From an uncultured Clostridia bacterium (GTDB taxonomy: Bacteria; Bacillota; Clostridia; TANB77; CAG-508), in assembly GCA_944391965.1 (NCBI GenBank), contig CALXVH010000013.1:1-42317 (forward strand): DNA of 42,317 bases. The letters run 5' to 3'. The notes under the pieces were generated by a model. It ran no database searches. It was not told the DNA's origin and saw only the letters and a list, made by a program, of their open reading frames with translations. Below are positions 19 to 41,368 of this stretch, piece by piece. The position numbers and the translations under genes were made by a program. The stretch's first letter is position 1. Every line of letters begins with the position of its first letter.

Positions 19-47
19 ATATTACCATAACACCTTTTTATTGTCAA
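19..47 (-). promoter_or_regulatory. Candidate sigma-A promoter firing out of the left edge
   Basis: Reading the minus strand there is a perfect TTGACA (42-47), a 17-base spacer and TAATAT (19-24) preceded by TGG, an extended -10 arrangement. It would drive a gene left of the window. It lies past the end of the four-gene operon, so that operon probably ends in the AT-rich stretch 48-151. I saw no clear hairpin terminator there. Confidence 0.45.
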
Positions 48-151: not shown

Positions 152-862
152 CTATAATGTTGTTATATTTCTTGTTTGCAATATATATATTTCTCCATCC
201 TTTATAGACCATTCTATATCTTGTGCAGCTTTATAGATTCTTTCTATATCTAAGCCAATTTTACTTAAAGTTTCTATCTCCTTATTTGACAACATTTCTT
301 TTCCTATTTTATTCTCTATTATTAATGTATTCTTATTTATTATAAGTTGTGATGGAGTTACCTCTCCTTGAACTAATTTTTCACCCAAACCTAATACACT
401 TTCTATTACAATAGTATCATCACCAGTTACTGGATTTTTAGTGAACATTACTCCTGATATATCTCCATCTATCATTTCTTGAACTATAACTGATACTTTT
501 GTATTCTCATCTACTATGTTTTTTTCATTAATATATCCTTTTATATTTTCTGATTTATTTGATTCATAACATCTTTCTATGCTTTTAATAATCTCTTCTT
601 TATTTATATTAAGAAAAGTTTCAAATTGTCCAGCATATGAATTTTGTGTTCCATCTTCACATATAGCAGATGATCTAACTGCTACTTTATCTAGTTTTAA
701 TTTATTATACATATTATATATGTTGTTTTTATTCTCTTTTGATGTACAAACAAATCCTCTAGGTACATTAAATCCTAATTTTATTAGTTCACCTAAATTA
801 CCTGCTTTTCCTCCGACTTCTTGCACATCTTTTTTACTCACTTCATCTAATTTATATATCAT
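152..862 (-). CDS. Stand-alone PPDK/PEP-synthase-type ATP-grasp domain protein
   Basis: This 236-residue protein matches only the N-terminal nucleotide-binding domain of pyruvate phosphate dikinase and PEP synthase. It has the GGKAGNLGEL loop with Lys19, the VAVRSSA strand with Arg63 followed by an EDG, the YAGQFET segment, a SGVMFTKNPVTG segment, and the terminal ILQTR pair Gln229/Arg231. The family domain is usually about 300-340 residues; here the helical stretch between the first loop and VAVRSS is shortened. There is no swivelling His domain and no PEP/pyruvate barrel. In the family this domain uses ATP to phosphorylate a histidine on the swivelling domain. The only such His domain nearby is in the first gene of this operon (2781-4034), so I infer the two act in trans. 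It starts one base after the stop of the phosphatase gene and is the last gene of the operon. The domain call is firm; the acceptor and substrate are unknown. Confidence 0.85.
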   Translation of the reverse strand: MIYKLDEVSKKDVQEVGGKAGNLGELIKLGFNVPRGFVCTSKENKNNIYNMYNKLKLDKVAVRSSAICEDGTQNSYAGQFETFLNINKEEIIKSIERCYESNKSENIKGYINEKNIVDENTKVSVIVQEMIDGDISGVMFTKNPVTGDDTIVIESVLGLGEKLVQGEVTPSQLIINKNTLIIENKIGKEMLSNKEIETLSKIGLDIERIYKAAQDIEWSIKDGEIYILQTRNITTL

Positions 863-863
863 A

Positions 864-1679
864 TTAATCCCTACCTAATATACATTCATCTTTAACTTTT
901 GGTGGAGGTCCAATAAATAGTTCATCTTCTGTCTTTATTATAATTCCATCTTCCTTTACATAAAAAACGATCCCATCATTATATCCAAATTCAGTTATGT
1001 GAGATAATTTCCTGTTATGAATAAAAGGTTCCATCGTTTCACCATGAGTAATTAAAAATACACATACATTTGTATCTTGACTTTTTGAATAGTTCTTTGA
1101 CCAATCTACTACATAATTTAATAGCTCTGTTATTTTCCTTCTTAAATCTGTTGGACCTTCTGCATCTTTATTGTATTGTTTCACCTCTTCTGAACTAGCA
1201 AGTTCTTTCCAAAATCCAGAATTCATTCCTCCATATCGTACTTTTAATTTCTGTATATAGCTTGGTGCCAAATCATATACATTCGGTTCTGCTAATTTGT
1301 CTCTTAATTCTTCTATAGTAAGTCCATTTGTTTTTTGCCTCGTATATATTTTGGGCTTTGAATAAAAATGAGATTTTGCCTCTTCTTCTGATAGCCCTTC
1401 TTGTTTTAGTTCTTCCATTATTTCTGCTTTGGTTAGTTTTTCAGTTTCGATAGCTCTTCTTCCAAATCTTTCGTCACTTAACCAATAAGTAGGTGAGGCA
1501 ATAATAAAAAATGTAGTATCTTTTAATTTATTGCCTACTATCCTATCTATTCTTTTTTTGGTCTTCTCTACTATTTCTCTTTTACCTTCTTCTGTGATAT
1601 GACCTATACTTAGGTCGCTTTTATCCCTAGAATTATTATATCTTCCATGCCTAGTTAATATTATATTTATATCTTTCAT
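864..1679 (-). CDS. Histidine phosphatase superfamily protein
   Basis: A 271-residue protein of the phosphoglycerate-mutase-like histidine phosphatase superfamily. The catalytic signature LTRHG is at the N-terminus (His11 the expected phospho-acceptor), and a second conserved histidine sits in LITHGE near residue 217. A long, charged helical insert lies between them, bigger than in simple SixA-type enzymes, so the substrate pocket may be unusual. It starts 8 bases after the stop of the 367-residue gene and ends one base before the ATP-grasp gene, so co-transcription is very likely. Family members hydrolyse phosphate from small molecules, proteins or phosphohistidine (SixA). I infer, without proof, that it opposes or processes the product of the split dikinase encoded around it. 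It could instead be a sugar or nucleotide phosphatase. Confidence 0.75.
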   Translation of the reverse strand: MKDINIILTRHGRYNNSRDKSDLSIGHITEEGKREIVEKTKKRIDRIVGNKLKDTTFFIIASPTYWLSDERFGRRAIETEKLTKAEIMEELKQEGLSEEEAKSHFYSKPKIYTRQKTNGLTIEELRDKLAEPNVYDLAPSYIQKLKVRYGGMNSGFWKELASSEEVKQYNKDAEGPTDLRRKITELLNYVVDWSKNYSKSQDTNVCVFLITHGETMEPFIHNRKLSHITEFGYNDGIVFYVKEDGIIIKTEDELFIGPPPKVKDECILGRD

Positions 1680-1687
1680 TTTATCAC

Positions 1688-2791
1688 CTACAAATCTTCT
1701 AAAGAAAAGTCAGTAAAATCTGGTGTCATAACTATTGCTTTTAAATCTGTTGGTAAATACCACACTAAGTAATAGAACATTCCAGCTTGTCCAACTGAAC
1801 GAATAGACATATTTGGATTTGACTGTCTAAGTATTTCTCGTATCTCATCATGAATTCCAAACCAAAATGGTAGTAACTTTCCATCTACTGCACCCATAAC
1901 ATCTTTATACATCGCAAAATTTTTAGCTTGTTCATATGACATCTTCAATAACTCATATTCATCAGCAGATAATTCCTTCTTAGCTTGCTCTAAAATATCA
2001 TCTATCTTTTTATGCATGCTATCATACTTTTCTTGTAATTGTAAATTTTCTTTTCTAAATTCTATGGTATGTGTCAAAATATTGTATAAAGGAAGCATTG
2101 AACTTCTAAATTTAACTTGATAAATTGCATGACGTAGTTTTTGTCCTATTATTTCGTTATTTTCTATAACCTTCCAAATATTTTTCCAAATACTATTTAT
2201 TTGCTCTACATTTTTCATCGGATCTTCGTCTATTAATTTAGTTACCCTTTCTAACTCTCCTTGTATCTCTTTTATATTTCTTAGTTCTTTTAACGCTGCA
2301 TTACAATCTAATGCTTGCTCTAAATATTCATCTGCATAATCTGATTGCAATAGAGTTTGAATTATCTCTTCTACTTTTGCTTCATATTTTTCTGTTTCAT
2401 CGGCTTTTACAGCCTTCCTAATTAATAACCTTAAATTATCAACATAAAAACTATGTATAGGACCATCTGCAAATAAATAATTTACTATCCAAAACCTAAA
2501 ACAAAATAATTTATTTAATCTTTGGTCCATTCTTACCATATACTCTAAATCTTTTTCTTTATGAGCATCATATTCCTTTTTTAGGTTATCAAGACCTACA
2601 ACTAATTCAGCCTTTTGTGCATCACCATATTCTCTAAAGCCAACTGGATCCATTGCATATTTTTTCGCAGCTTCTTCATATTTTTCTTTTATTAATGGAA
2701 ATTTATTCGGATATGTAAAAATCATTCCTTCTATATCATTTGGTAAATATGTTGGCATTTTTAACAAATATTCTGGTATTTTAATATTCAT
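1688..2791 (-). CDS. Unknown helical protein of the split-dikinase operon
   Basis: A 367-residue protein I do not recognise as a named family. It has no signal peptide or membrane segment. It is almost wholly charged and helical, with coiled-coil-like stretches around residues 120-200 and 235-285, and a more aromatic C-terminal part. That C-terminal part (about 275-330, with SYEQAKNFAMYKDVM and FGIHDEIREIL) resembles, by eye only, the helical segment that precedes the swivelling domain in PEP-synthase-like and rifampicin-phosphotransferase-like enzymes. Its start overlaps the end of the GHKL-swivel gene by 11 bases, with a GGAGGAGAAGG ribosome site inside that gene, so the two are probably translationally coupled. 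I infer it supplies the substrate-binding or linker part of a split enzyme. That needs a profile search. Confidence 0.5.
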   Translation of the reverse strand: MNIKIPEYLLKMPTYLPNDIEGMIFTYPNKFPLIKEKYEEAAKKYAMDPVGFREYGDAQKAELVVGLDNLKKEYDAHKEKDLEYMVRMDQRLNKLFCFRFWIVNYLFADGPIHSFYVDNLRLLIRKAVKADETEKYEAKVEEIIQTLLQSDYADEYLEQALDCNAALKELRNIKEIQGELERVTKLIDEDPMKNVEQINSIWKNIWKVIENNEIIGQKLRHAIYQVKFRSSMLPLYNILTHTIEFRKENLQLQEKYDSMHKKIDDILEQAKKELSADEYELLKMSYEQAKNFAMYKDVMGAVDGKLLPFWFGIHDEIREILRQSNPNMSIRSVGQAGMFYYLVWYLPTDLKAIVMTPDFTDFSLEDL

Positions 2792-4034
2792 ATACTACAC
2801 CTTCTCCTCCGTCGATTATTACTTTTTGCCCATCTTGTAAGACACTAGTTGCTATATTTGTTCCAACTACTGCAGGTATTCCAAATTCTCTAGATACTAT
2901 TGCAGCATGACAAAGAGTTCCTCCTAAATCTGTAATTATTCCCCCAGCTCGTCTTATTGCAATTAAATACTGTGGTCTTGTCATTGCTGTAACTATAATA
3001 TCCCCTTTATTTACCTTCTTAATTTCTTGTTCCATATTTCCACTATGAAACATATTTACCTGTCTTACTGTTCCTATAACCTTTCCTTTGCTTGCTGGAT
3101 ATCCAGTTAACAATCTTTTAGGTTTATATTCATATTCCTTAAAATACTCCATTAATCTTTCTTCTACTTGTTTATATTCATCAGAAGTCTTAACCCAGCC
3201 TTTTTTATCATGTGTTATATCTACTCCTGATATTTCTAGTTCTCCAATAATTTGTTTTATCTCCTGATTATTTGTAAGACCAATTTTATCAAAAACAGTA
3301 ACTAATCTTCCTCTTCTAAATGTATTAAACCCATAATAGCTCTTGTTATATCCTGCTAATTGATATGCCCACCAGCCTTTAATCTCACATTTACCAACTT
3401 TAATATTTATATTCTTTTTAGTCCCTTCTATTATATCTGGTTTAGGAACTACACATTTTTCATCATTAAAATATAAATAAATCTCATCATTTAAAATAAA
3501 TGGTGCAAATCTTCTTCCTAATTCTTCTTTTATTTTTTGTAATAATTCAGCTGTTAAATCAATCTTTAATTTTTTAACTTCTACCACTGTTCCATGTGAT
3601 TTATCATTTTTGCCTTCAATTATAAATGGAAATTTAAACCAATCGCCCTTTTGCAACCATTCATTTTCATCATATTTAATTATATATTCTTCGTTTGAAT
3701 CTTCCATTTTAGTCCTTAAAACAAATTCTTCACCTAAAAAAGATGTTGCTGTTTTTAATCCTAACCCAAATTCGCCAAGCTTTTCTTTTTTGCTTGAGTA
3801 TCCTAACCTTATAGAATCTTTTGCTTGCGATTTATTCATTCCTTTACCAGTATCTTCTATAATAATTTGTTCTTTATTAATTGTAACTTTTATTGTTAAT
3901 TTTTCATTTTCTAATCTAGCATCTATAGAATTGTCTATTAATTCTGATATTGCTTCCTGTACAGAATATCCAGTTTGGCTTATCTTACACATTATGCTCC
4001 TATGTGGTGTGATATTAATAAACTCTTTTACCAT
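2781..4034 (-). CDS. GHKL (MORC/HATPase_c_3-like) ATPase fused to PEP-utilizer swivelling His domain
   Basis: A 417-residue two-part protein. Residues about 1-300 form a Bergerat-fold ATPase: the N-box has ISELIDNSIDA, the G1 motif is EDTGKGM, the lid/G2 motif is GEFGLGLKTA, and a GTVVEV strand follows. This layout fits MutL/MORC/Hsp90-type GHKL proteins rather than histidine kinases, because there is no HisKA dimerisation helix. Residues about 308-417 are a PEP-utilizer mobile domain, starting with LTGYPASKGKVIG and containing GGTLCHAAIVSREFGIP, with His376 as the expected phosphocarrier. In PEP synthase and PPDK that His is phosphorylated by the ATP-grasp domain; here that domain is in a separate gene at 152-862. 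The ATG follows GGAGGG by six bases. It is the first gene of the operon, divergent from an AraC regulator. The domain calls are firm; the combined function is unknown. Confidence 0.85.
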   Translation of the reverse strand: MVKEFINITPHRSIMCKISQTGYSVQEAISELIDNSIDARLENEKLTIKVTINKEQIIIEDTGKGMNKSQAKDSIRLGYSSKKEKLGEFGLGLKTATSFLGEEFVLRTKMEDSNEEYIIKYDENEWLQKGDWFKFPFIIEGKNDKSHGTVVEVKKLKIDLTAELLQKIKEELGRRFAPFILNDEIYLYFNDEKCVVPKPDIIEGTKKNINIKVGKCEIKGWWAYQLAGYNKSYYGFNTFRRGRLVTVFDKIGLTNNQEIKQIIGELEISGVDITHDKKGWVKTSDEYKQVEERLMEYFKEYEYKPKRLLTGYPASKGKVIGTVRQVNMFHSGNMEQEIKKVNKGDIIVTAMTRPQYLIAIRRAGGIITDLGGTLCHAAIVSREFGIPAVVGTNIATSVLQDGQKVIIDGGEGVVYEY

Positions 4035-4044
4035 AATTATCCCT

Positions 4045-4061
4045 CCTATAATAATTATAGG
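4045..4061. repeat. 17-bp perfect inverted repeat, possible operator
   Basis: Seven bases, a three-base centre and the seven complementary bases (CCTATAA-TAA-TTATAGG) lie directly upstream of and overlapping the ribosome site of the GHKL-swivel gene, in the 108-base divergent gap to the AraC gene. Each arm contains TATAA, so it may also hold a -10 element. I could not find a well-spaced -35. It could be an operator or a short hairpin masking the ribosome site. Confidence 0.35.
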
Positions 4062-4142
4062 ATTTTTTCTAACCTAATAATTGACATTTTAGGTACCAAA
4101 AAAGTCTGTTTTATGTTAAAATATTTCTTAATTGGAGGAATT

Positions 4143-4961
4143 ATGGATAATTTTGATAAATTTACTGAACTAATTAATTACATAGAAGCTAATTTAGATG
4201 CAGATATTGAACCTAAAAAGATGGCACAAATCTTATGTGTTAACGAATACACTATGTATCGAATTTTTACTTTTTTAACAGGAATGACATTAACAGAATA
4301 CATTAGAAAAAGACGTTTAAGTATGGCTGCCATTGAGCTTCAAAATTCTGATATAAAAATTATAGATTTAGCTATTAAATATGGGTATGAAAATTCAGAA
4401 AGTTTTTCTAGATCTTTTTATAAATTTCACGGAATTAAACCAAGCAAAGTAAAAAAAGAAGGAAAGTATATAAAAAACTTTCCTCCATACTCATTTGCAA
4501 ATATAAGAACTAATAAAGAATTACATTATAAAATAGAAGAACATGATGAAATTGAATTATATGGTATTCCTAGAAAGTGTTATATTCCAGATATTAAAAA
4601 AATTGCACCTGCTTTTTGGAAAGAACTTAGTAAAGATAAAACTTACGATAATATCTTAAATGAGTATACTTCATATGGTGTTATAGAATATGATGAATTT
4701 TTTCCAAATTCTATTAACGCAAATTATTACATTGCAAGTAAAGAACATATGCCACATAGCACAAAAATTATAATTCCAAGTTCTACATGGGCTGTTTTTA
4801 AAATAGATGAAATATCTGGTGATTATTTTAATAACTTTTCACATAACGCATATCGTAACTGGATTCCTTATTCTGGTTATAATATTAGAAATATTCCAGA
4901 ACTTGAAGTTTACCATGGGCCAGGTCATACAGAATGGTGGCTTCCTATAGAAACGAAATAG
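4143..4961 (+). CDS. AraC-family regulator with C-terminal effector-binding (GyrI-like) domain
   Basis: A 272-residue transcription factor. Residues about 1-105 hold the double helix-turn-helix of the AraC/XylS family: KKMAQILCVNEYTMYRIF is the first HTH, and IIDLAIKYGYENSESFSRSFYKFHG with the typical PSKVKK end is the second. Residues about 120-272 look like the AraC effector-binding/GyrI-like domain, with IPSSTWAVFKI and a Trp-rich end. The order HTH first, ligand domain second is that of the MarA/Rob-like effector subfamily. The start at 4143 is chosen because GGAGG lies four bases upstream; the frame is open further upstream without a ribosome site. It is divergent from the GHKL operon and may regulate it, but it could equally act elsewhere. 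The ligand cannot be read from the sequence. Confidence 0.85.
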   Translation: MDNFDKFTELINYIEANLDADIEPKKMAQILCVNEYTMYRIFTFLTGMTLTEYIRKRRLSMAAIELQNSDIKIIDLAIKYGYENSESFSRSFYKFHGIKPSKVKKEGKYIKNFPPYSFANIRTNKELHYKIEEHDEIELYGIPRKCYIPDIKKIAPAFWKELSKDKTYDNILNEYTSYGVIEYDEFFPNSINANYYIASKEHMPHSTKIIIPSSTWAVFKIDEISGDYFNNFSHNAYRNWIPYSGYNIRNIPELEVYHGPGHTEWWLPIETK

Positions 4962-8007: not shown

Positions 8008-8016
8008 TTTTTCCTC

Positions 8017-8356
8017 CTAACATACATTAAATTTCATATCTAAATCATCATATATGTGTATTAGTTTTAATATCCCACACATATCTAATACTTTTTTTAC
8101 ACTTTTCTTAACATTAATTAATGCTACTTCTCCACCGTAACATATTTACTATCTTATACCTTCCTAATAACAATCCTATTCCTGCACTATCCATGAAGCT
8201 AACACTATCAAAATTAAATATAACTTTTTTAGGCATATGTCTTTCAATTTCATAATCCATTTTCCTCCTTAAATCTTTTGTAGTATGATGGTCTATTTCT
8301 TCTTCCAGCGAAAAGAATAATAGCTTGTCCTGCTCTAAATATTTTATCTGCACCAC
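8017..8356 (-). CDS. spoIIAA: Anti-anti-sigma factor SpoIIAA, interrupted by a one-base frameshift
   Basis: A STAS-domain protein normally about 110 residues. The opening frame (8356-8114) gives only 80 residues and ends with a foreign tail after GIGLLLGRYKIVNM. One base later in frame, the missing C-terminus continues (YGGEVALINVKK, then a VLDMCGILKLI helix) down to a TAG at 8017-8019. Removing one T of the TT pair at 8139-8140 joins the halves into a normal SpoIIAA. Ser57 in FMDSAG is the expected site phosphorylated by SpoIIAB. The start is GTG at 8356 or 8353, the second having better spacing to GGAGG. Causes could be an assembly error, a true mutation, or a +1 shift at TTA-CGG, where CGG should be rare. 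Confidence 0.9.
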
Positions 8357-10162: not shown

Positions 10163-10654
10163 TCAGATTTTAGCTTTAAGATAAATTGTGTCATCCGTCT
10201 CCTCAAGAATTTCAAAAAATGGAAGTATCTTCTTCTTGACATCTTCCTGGTCGAACACTCTATATGTGTTCCCATTTACCGTAATGGTTTTCTCTCCTGG
10301 ATTTCCTGTGGGTAATGCTGTAAGCTCTACCTTGAAAAGCTGAGTGATATCAGCTTCTGCTTTTCCTTCGCTCCAAGCAACTCTTAATGGTCTCATGAAA
10401 AGCCAAGCCAGCATTGCTTCCCATTCGGATTTTCCAGTTTCACGCCATAACGAAATCAAATTTTCCATAGTCACTTTCATTTTCAAGTCTTCAATGTCCT
10501 TAAGAATATACTTCTTTTTGACATCATGATATCGTGCTCCGATAGACTTAAAGTCCATAAAAATAAACCGTTCTCCAAGATTTCCATTCAAATCGATTCC
10601 GTAAAACCGAGTTTCCTCTTCAGGCGTCATTTTTTTAGATTCCTTTACTCTCAT
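10163..10654 (-). CDS. Orphan 163-residue protein with higher-GC coding
   Basis: I do not recognise a family. The protein is soluble, with no signal peptide or membrane segment, and mixes helices (residues 58-100, ending in Trp-rich segments) with a C-terminal part carrying TITVNGNTYRVFDQEDV. The start is supported by GGAGGAAAGAT directly before the ATG. Two 60-base lines counted by eye give 38% and 43% GC, against about 28% in the neighbouring dehydrogenase, and codons such as CGG and CTC are used more. This suggests recent acquisition. It stands alone between a terminator and valS. The reading frame is clean over its whole length, so it is probably a real gene. Confidence 0.65.
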   Translation of the reverse strand: MRVKESKKMTPEEETRFYGIDLNGNLGERFIFMDFKSIGARYHDVKKKYILKDIEDLKMKVTMENLISLWRETGKSEWEAMLAWLFMRPLRVAWSEGKAEADITQLFKVELTALPTGNPGEKTITVNGNTYRVFDQEDVKKKILPFFEILEETDDTIYLKAKI

Positions 10655-40999: not shown

Positions 41000-41368
41000 A
41001 TGAAAAACGAAAAACGGAAAAAAGTAATAAAGAAATTGAATCAGGAGATTCGGAAACATCTTGGACAACTGCAGGAGTTGATTATGATGGAAGCCGATGT
41101 GGAGCTTAATAACGGGAATTATATTCCTAAAGAGGCTCAACGGTATGTTGATCTGAAAAAAATTAAAGAAGATAAGGAAAACTTATTGATTACTATTGCA
41201 GATTTAACAGCCATCTGCAAGGCTTTGGAACATGGGAAGACTACAGTAGTAATTCGTGGCACTGCTACGAATCGCAGTATGATTCTTATCGAGACAAGCA
41301 AATCGATTTCGGCGGCTGGCTTAGACCAGGACAGTAATGGATTTACTGGTGAAATCTTGCTGAGCTAA
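41000..41368 (+). CDS. Higher-GC orphan protein, 5' end possibly truncated or shifted
   Basis: A 122-residue basic, helical protein (MKNEKRKKVIKKLNQEIRK, then coiled-coil-like segments and a short strand-rich end TTVVIRGTATN). I do not recognise its family. The same frame is open upstream to 40910 with protein-like codons (NELFKQELQFEEYLKLRLEF) but no start. A well-placed AAAGGA precedes an ATG at 40914 in the neighbouring frame. A one-base loss or gain would join them, so the gene may be shifted. GC is about 37-47% in two lines counted, against about 28% nearby. It sits right after a tRNA-Thr, a common site of integration, and has its own terminator. Confidence 0.5.
   Translation: MKNEKRKKVIKKLNQEIRKHLGQLQELIMMEADVELNNGNYIPKEAQRYVDLKKIKEDKENLLITIADLTAICKALEHGKTTVVIRGTATNRSMILIETSKSISAAGLDQDSNGFTGEILLS

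Follow-up and report, generated by a model that had tools for sequence, protein, structure and literature searches.

A four-gene unit at the end of the window

At one end of the window, by which we mean the whole 42,317-nucleotide stretch of DNA analysed, lie four open reading frames, all on the minus strand and all with ATG starts, which are numbered here as genes 1 to 4 and listed with their flanking features in Table 1. The close packing described in an earlier note on this DNA is borne out: genes 1 and 2 share an 11-base overlap, genes 2 and 3 are separated by 8 bases and genes 3 and 4 by a single base. Since the set is conserved in seven genomes and is under purifying selection, its arrangement is not one of chance, and the four-gene unit is understood as real and selected.

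Table 1. Features of the unit and its flanks, in window positions
Feature	Position	Strand	Basis
rRNA-operon-like promoter, downstream boundary of the unit	19..47	-	promoter match
Gene 4, 236 aa, compact PEP-synthase/PPDK-type ATP-grasp without swivel	152..862	-	PPDK_N 6e-60; PDB alignment
Gene 3, 271 aa, divergent histidine phosphatase (putative; R10-H11-G12, R75, H212)	864..1679	-	profile-profile comparison with shuffles; invariant residues
Gene 2, 367 aa, helical protein, family unassigned	1688..2791	-	no significant Pfam/NCBIfam/PHROGs/PDB match
Gene 1, 417 aa, GHKL ATPase + S5 + phosphohistidine swivel	2781..4034	-	Pfam, PDB matches, motifs invariant in 7 sequences
Gene 1, GHKL part	~3666-3968	-
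Gene 1, S5 part	~3132-3350	-
Gene 1, swivel part	~2787-3113	-
Gene 1, His376 codon	2907-2909	-
Palindrome GACTTTTTTGGTACCTAAAATGTC, probable operator	4083..4106		present in 7/7 loci
Divergent AraC-type regulator, GyrI/Cass2-like ligand domain	4143..4961	+	Pfam

The gene 1 protein is a fusion, with Pfam matches to HATPase_c_3 (1.7e-19), Morc6_S5 (4.4e-9) and the swivel domain of PEP-utilizers (2.1e-23); among solved structures, its swivel part matches PEP synthases and its GHKL part matches MORC3 (PDB comparison). The seven sequences compared show no variation at residues E31, N35, D61, G63, G65, G90 and G92 of the N, G1 and G2 boxes, nor in the swivel motif T368-D-L-G-G-T-L-C-H376, which fits the published form T/SxxGGxxxH (PMC12167813). 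The regulatory Thr of PEP synthase, two positions before the His, is replaced by Leu, with the Cys preceding the His retained. The linker from S5 to swivel is short, about six residues, and leaves little room for a long swing.

PPDK_N is the sole Pfam domain on the gene 4 protein, the swivel being absent from this chain. The ATP-grasp and swivel domains are thus divided between two chains, with the swivel joined to a MORC-type GHKL-S5 ATPase, as had been claimed from the DNA letters and as the Pfam matches confirm. Residues K19, R63, D215, E217, Q229 and R231 of gene 4 are invariant across the unit loci, and from family knowledge we take them to be catalytic. Solved PEP synthases match gene 4 (PDB comparison); gene 4 falls short of one of these by about 90 residues in the stretch from position 45 to 59 and by about 30 around position 187. 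Because ATP-grasp and swivel each score highest with PEP-synthase models, descent of genes 1 and 4 from a PEP-synthase-like enzyme fits the data. Pfam found the PEP/pyruvate-binding C-terminal domain in none of the four proteins.

Gene 3 falls below the Pfam cut-off for PF00300. Compared with histidine phosphatases, its profile reached a probability of 91% and a score of 48.3, against 19.7 or less for 40 column-shuffled versions and 14.2 for the reversed profile; the comparison set held 13 sequences from histidine-phosphatase loci, one of which (L137) is a fragment of 39 aa included in error. The RHG triplet, the second Arg and the second His are invariant, and the top Foldseek matches of a low-quality gene 3 model, none below E 0.01, are mainly histidine phosphatases, which is a hint only. 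On the controlled profile comparison, gene 3 is taken as a divergent histidine phosphatase, in agreement with the earlier assignment.

Gene 2 is conserved at 76-97% over the seven loci, and searches of Pfam, NCBIfam, PHROGs, the PDB, plasmids, phages and viral contigs turned up no homologue beyond the unit. Weak matches in two genomes of the family, one to an MltG-like protein (as read) and the other to a stretch with stops, were taken as chance. The proposal that the 367-residue protein supplies the substrate or linker domain of a dikinase drew no support from profile comparison with RPH-type helical domains, in which it scored 19.2 and its shuffles 14.3-24.6; this is weak counter-evidence because the gene 2 alignment is shallow. 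AlphaFold models of the 367-residue protein and the gene 3 phosphatase (mean pLDDT 45 and 46) are unusable, the relatives being too few and too alike.

Distribution, chromosomal sites and selection

The carriers are uncultured gut Clostridia: 6/14 genomes of the window's genus and one genome (G981) of a second genus in the same family. Conserved co-occurrence, lack of which had been set beforehand as refuting the operon, was found throughout, with all four genes, in fixed order, in 7/7 carriers and at two chromosomal sites. In the first genus, the unit sits between spoIIQ and the rRNA-operon-like promoter, where contigs end. Four members without the unit have spoIIQ 136-376 bases from the contig end, before a similar promoter, so that the empty site is directly visible. 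The promoter sequence also ends contigs in relatives, whether they carry the unit or not, and an rRNA operon presumably lies beyond it. The site in the second genus is different, and nucleotide similarity there extends over window 155-4108, which takes in the four genes and some 75 bases upstream of them; the four genes move as one unit.

Beyond these carriers, gene 2 was not found in overlapping samples of 147 relatives, 388 genomes from the order and 399 from the phylum, nor was the fusion of gene 1 type found in the other genomes of a sample of 391 from the class. A scan of 84,980 species genomes relied on exact short patterns, the reach of which extends to close relatives only. The unit was not found in the plasmids, phages and viral contigs searched; no phage or plasmid record offered a single place covering 80% of the gene 1 fusion, and the GHKL proteins on viral contigs had neither a swivel nor the unit's neighbour genes. 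Stand-alone swivel reading frames in other Clostridia, considered as candidates, lack a GHKL part and in most cases represent fragments, or versions split over two genes, of RPH-like or pyruvate-kinase genes.

Comparison of the window with its relatives gave, for genes 1 to 4 in turn, dN/dS values of 0.04-0.07, 0.06-0.15, 0.08-0.24 and 0.15-0.38, those involving the most distant locus being limited by dS near saturation; the adjoining sporulation genes gave 0.13-0.32 over more distant pairs. All four genes are under purifying selection, which is strongest on the GHKL-swivel fusion, and the unit is kept functional.

Some 50-70 bases upstream of gene 1, between it and the divergent AraC gene, lies the 24-base palindrome. 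It occurs once in the host genome, at this unit (search within 3 mismatches), and at the second site its central GGTACC becomes GATATC, a symmetrical change. The AraC gene is conserved with the unit in the first genus only (5 relatives). A dedicated dimeric regulator probably acts here; the palindrome is kept at the second site, where the AraC gene is missing.

CGG codons and +1 frameshifts in the host lineage

A separate observation on the host concerns spoIIAA (window 8016-8356, minus strand), which is split over two frames with a +1 shift at about 8137, at the C forming a CGG codon, so that ATG TTA CGG TGG has to be taken as ATG TTA (C) GGT GGA. Seven genus members share this CGG site, with differing codons preceding it; in two genomes (G004 and G006) the +1 shift lies at another CGG, some 30 nt upstream, and in five members the gene is intact. 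Over 1.05 Mb of host sequence, CGG accounts for 49 of 279,135 codons (reading frames of at least 150 aa), and the Arg tRNAs found in this part have the anticodons ACG, TCT and CCT, with none CCG. A mechanical scan of the same 1.05 Mb gave 102 +1 frameshift shapes per thousand uses at CGG vs 14 at the next codon. Under a looser rule there are seven CGG sites, including those in RlmN, an AAA_14/DUF4143 protein, an M14 peptidase and a FAD-Rieske protein, and once the two frames are joined, the products match Pfam domains that run over the junction (RlmN radical SAM, STAS, DUF4143, M14 peptidase). Among the window genes counted, in-frame CGG occurs five times, always in one of two reading frames, 10163-10654 (minus strand) and 41000-41368 (plus strand), which may be foreign genes or not genes.

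Mycoplasma capricolum and some Bacillota are known to leave CGG unassigned or to reassign it (PMC8629427); open-access papers yielded no account of systematic +1 shifting there. The pattern in the host lineage resembles +1 shifting, tolerated or programmed, at a CGG codon that has no assignment, and it deserves a study of its own. Within the unit, gene 3 of one carrier (genome G007, locus L018 5260-6070) has a +1 shift at CCC CGG C. Because this shift is of the same CGG kind as that in spoIIAA, the gene need not be a pseudogene and may be expressed by frameshift translation.

A proposed phosphohistidine-coupled GHKL ATPase and its relation to known systems

Two-component dikinases are a described subfamily, with HpeHI, CreHI and the phenylphosphate synthase PpsAB as members; in HpeHI, one chain carries the ATP-grasp and the other the substrate domain plus swivel, the His of which is essential (PMC12167813). 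The earlier view of a dikinase cut into parts, for which no described system was known, can therefore be retained for the divided chains and for the GHKL-swivel fusion, of which we found no description in open-access papers; division of ATP-grasp from swivel is not in itself new. Starting from parts, motifs, linkage and selection as observed, we infer a direction of phosphate flow, an acceptor and a place for the 367-residue protein as follows. The ATP-grasp of gene 4 would split ATP to AMP and phosphorylate His376 of the gene 1 swivel, as HpeI does HpeH, a transfer that is probable given the complete motifs of ATP-grasp and swivel, both closest to PEP synthase. The order of partner then swivel in gene 1 is that of HpeH, and the GHKL module, not gene 2, is therefore taken to stand in the substrate domain's place, where it would either be switched itself or hold the acceptor; no recognisable substrate domain was found in the unit's other proteins by Pfam or profile comparison, the latter shallow for gene 2. 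GHKL-S5 modules are, as known for the family, ATP-dependent conformational clamps (PMC2292703). Phosphate on His376, or passed from there to an acceptor that the GHKL module or the 367-residue protein holds, would set the state of the clamp. For the reset, the gene 3 phosphatase would strip the phosphate from His376 in the manner of SixA, which removes phosphate from catalytic or protein phosphohistidines and acts on NPr and Ndk (PMC7948535, PMC12934123).

A phosphohistidine-coupled GHKL ATPase is, at a probability of roughly 45%, the best explanation of the unit. That the purpose is reversible control of the GHKL module we consider a serious prospect at a little under even odds; the sharper version, a MORC-type GHKL cycle gated by reversible phosphohistidine with a dedicated dikinase as writer and a dedicated histidine phosphatase as eraser, is advanced more tentatively. 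Against a phosphohistidine switch stand the deletions in the ATP-grasp (about 90 and 30 residues) and the short S5-swivel link, and the target of the phosphatase could be a small molecule.

A small molecule, for example an antibiotic, might be the acceptor of the entire system: the 367-residue protein would bind the compound, gene 4 and the swivel would phosphorylate it, the phosphatase would act on the resulting compound or a by-product, and the GHKL module would power or gate the complex. The relatives RPH and HpeHI do phosphorylate small molecules (PMC12167813), and the RIF-binding domain of RPH is helical like the 367-residue protein, which nevertheless resembles RPH-type helical domains no better than shuffled controls do. 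The AraC regulator with its GyrI/Cass2-like ligand domain, which speaks for this reading in one genus, is missing at the second site, and known small-molecule dikinases need no GHKL ATPase. We consider this explanation unlikely. Somewhat more doubtful is a function in genetic conflict (anti-phage or anti-plasmid), in which GHKL-S5 would sense or clamp DNA and the dikinase would modify a nucleotide, a nucleic acid or a protein. The patchy presence with empty sites would suit it, as would the MZA-like or helicase/nuclease loci in which the closest plasmid relatives of the GHKL module occur and the ties of prokaryotic MORC relatives to restriction systems (PMC2292703). The conflict setting suggested from the DNA letters is not seen: there is no sign of a defence island at either site, the flanks being sporulation genes and an rRNA-type promoter at the first and ordinary genes at the second, and the unit and its adjoining genes include no restriction-modification, helicase, nuclease or methylase gene. 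PADLOC returned a partial MzaB match only, and conservation of the fusion exceeds what is usual for defence genes. Very improbable, and disfavoured here, is a functionless remnant of PEP synthase or PPDK; both halves are closest to PEP synthase, but the unit lacks the PEP/pyruvate-binding domain by Pfam, a PPDK-type gene is present elsewhere in the host genome, and the four genes are under purifying selection.

MORC-type GHKL-S5 ATPases have ties to restriction systems in prokaryotes and to chromatin silencing in eukaryotes; split dikinases phosphorylate metabolites and drugs. A selected unit that joins a split dikinase and a MORC-type ATPase would link phosphohistidine chemistry to the GHKL clamp, and it would offer a small, expressible system for asking how GHKL-S5 ATPases are controlled. 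If true, a phosphohistidine-gated MORC-type ATPase would represent a switch, for signalling or for a motor, of a kind that we have not found described.

Among known systems, MORC and paraMORC proteins (PMC2292703, PMC8011034) share with gene 1 the GHKL and S5 domains and complete N, G1 and G2 ATP-binding motifs; a term search within two key MORC papers found no swivel. Gene 1 differs by its C-terminal swivel and by the absence, at both sites, of the usual restriction, helicase or nuclease partner. The N-terminal GHKL region resembles MzaB of the MZA system, but the match is partial (43.7 bits vs a cut-off of 850) and no other Mza gene is nearby. On plasmids, the nearest relative of this GHKL-S5 module (L064 6037-11515, Haladaptatus plasmid NZ_CP120471.1) has as neighbours a 227-aa protein of no assigned family and an SNF2/PLD helicase, with a PADLOC PDC-S11 protein near; the locus is possibly an undescribed archaeal defence locus. 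SixA (PMC7948535) belongs to the same histidine phosphatase superfamily as gene 3 appears to and provides the precedent of action on protein phosphohistidine; gene 3 differs in its 271 aa, its long insert and its position below the Pfam cut-off. PEP synthase and PPDK are the closest sequence match for the unit's ATP-grasp and swivel, and are distinguished from it by the unit's separate chains, its lack of a PEP/pyruvate domain and its Leu in place of the regulatory Thr. HpeHI, CreHI and PpsAB have as swivel partner a helical substrate domain where gene 1 has a GHKL-S5 ATPase, so that the substrate domain on the swivel chain that defines a two-component dikinase is replaced in the unit, which has in addition a much shorter ATP-grasp, the phosphatase and the 367-residue protein. 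In its ATP-grasp and swivel the unit nonetheless appears to resemble a two-component dikinase, with the ATP-grasp on a chain of its own and the T/SxxGGxxxH swivel on a second, C-terminal to its partner domain.
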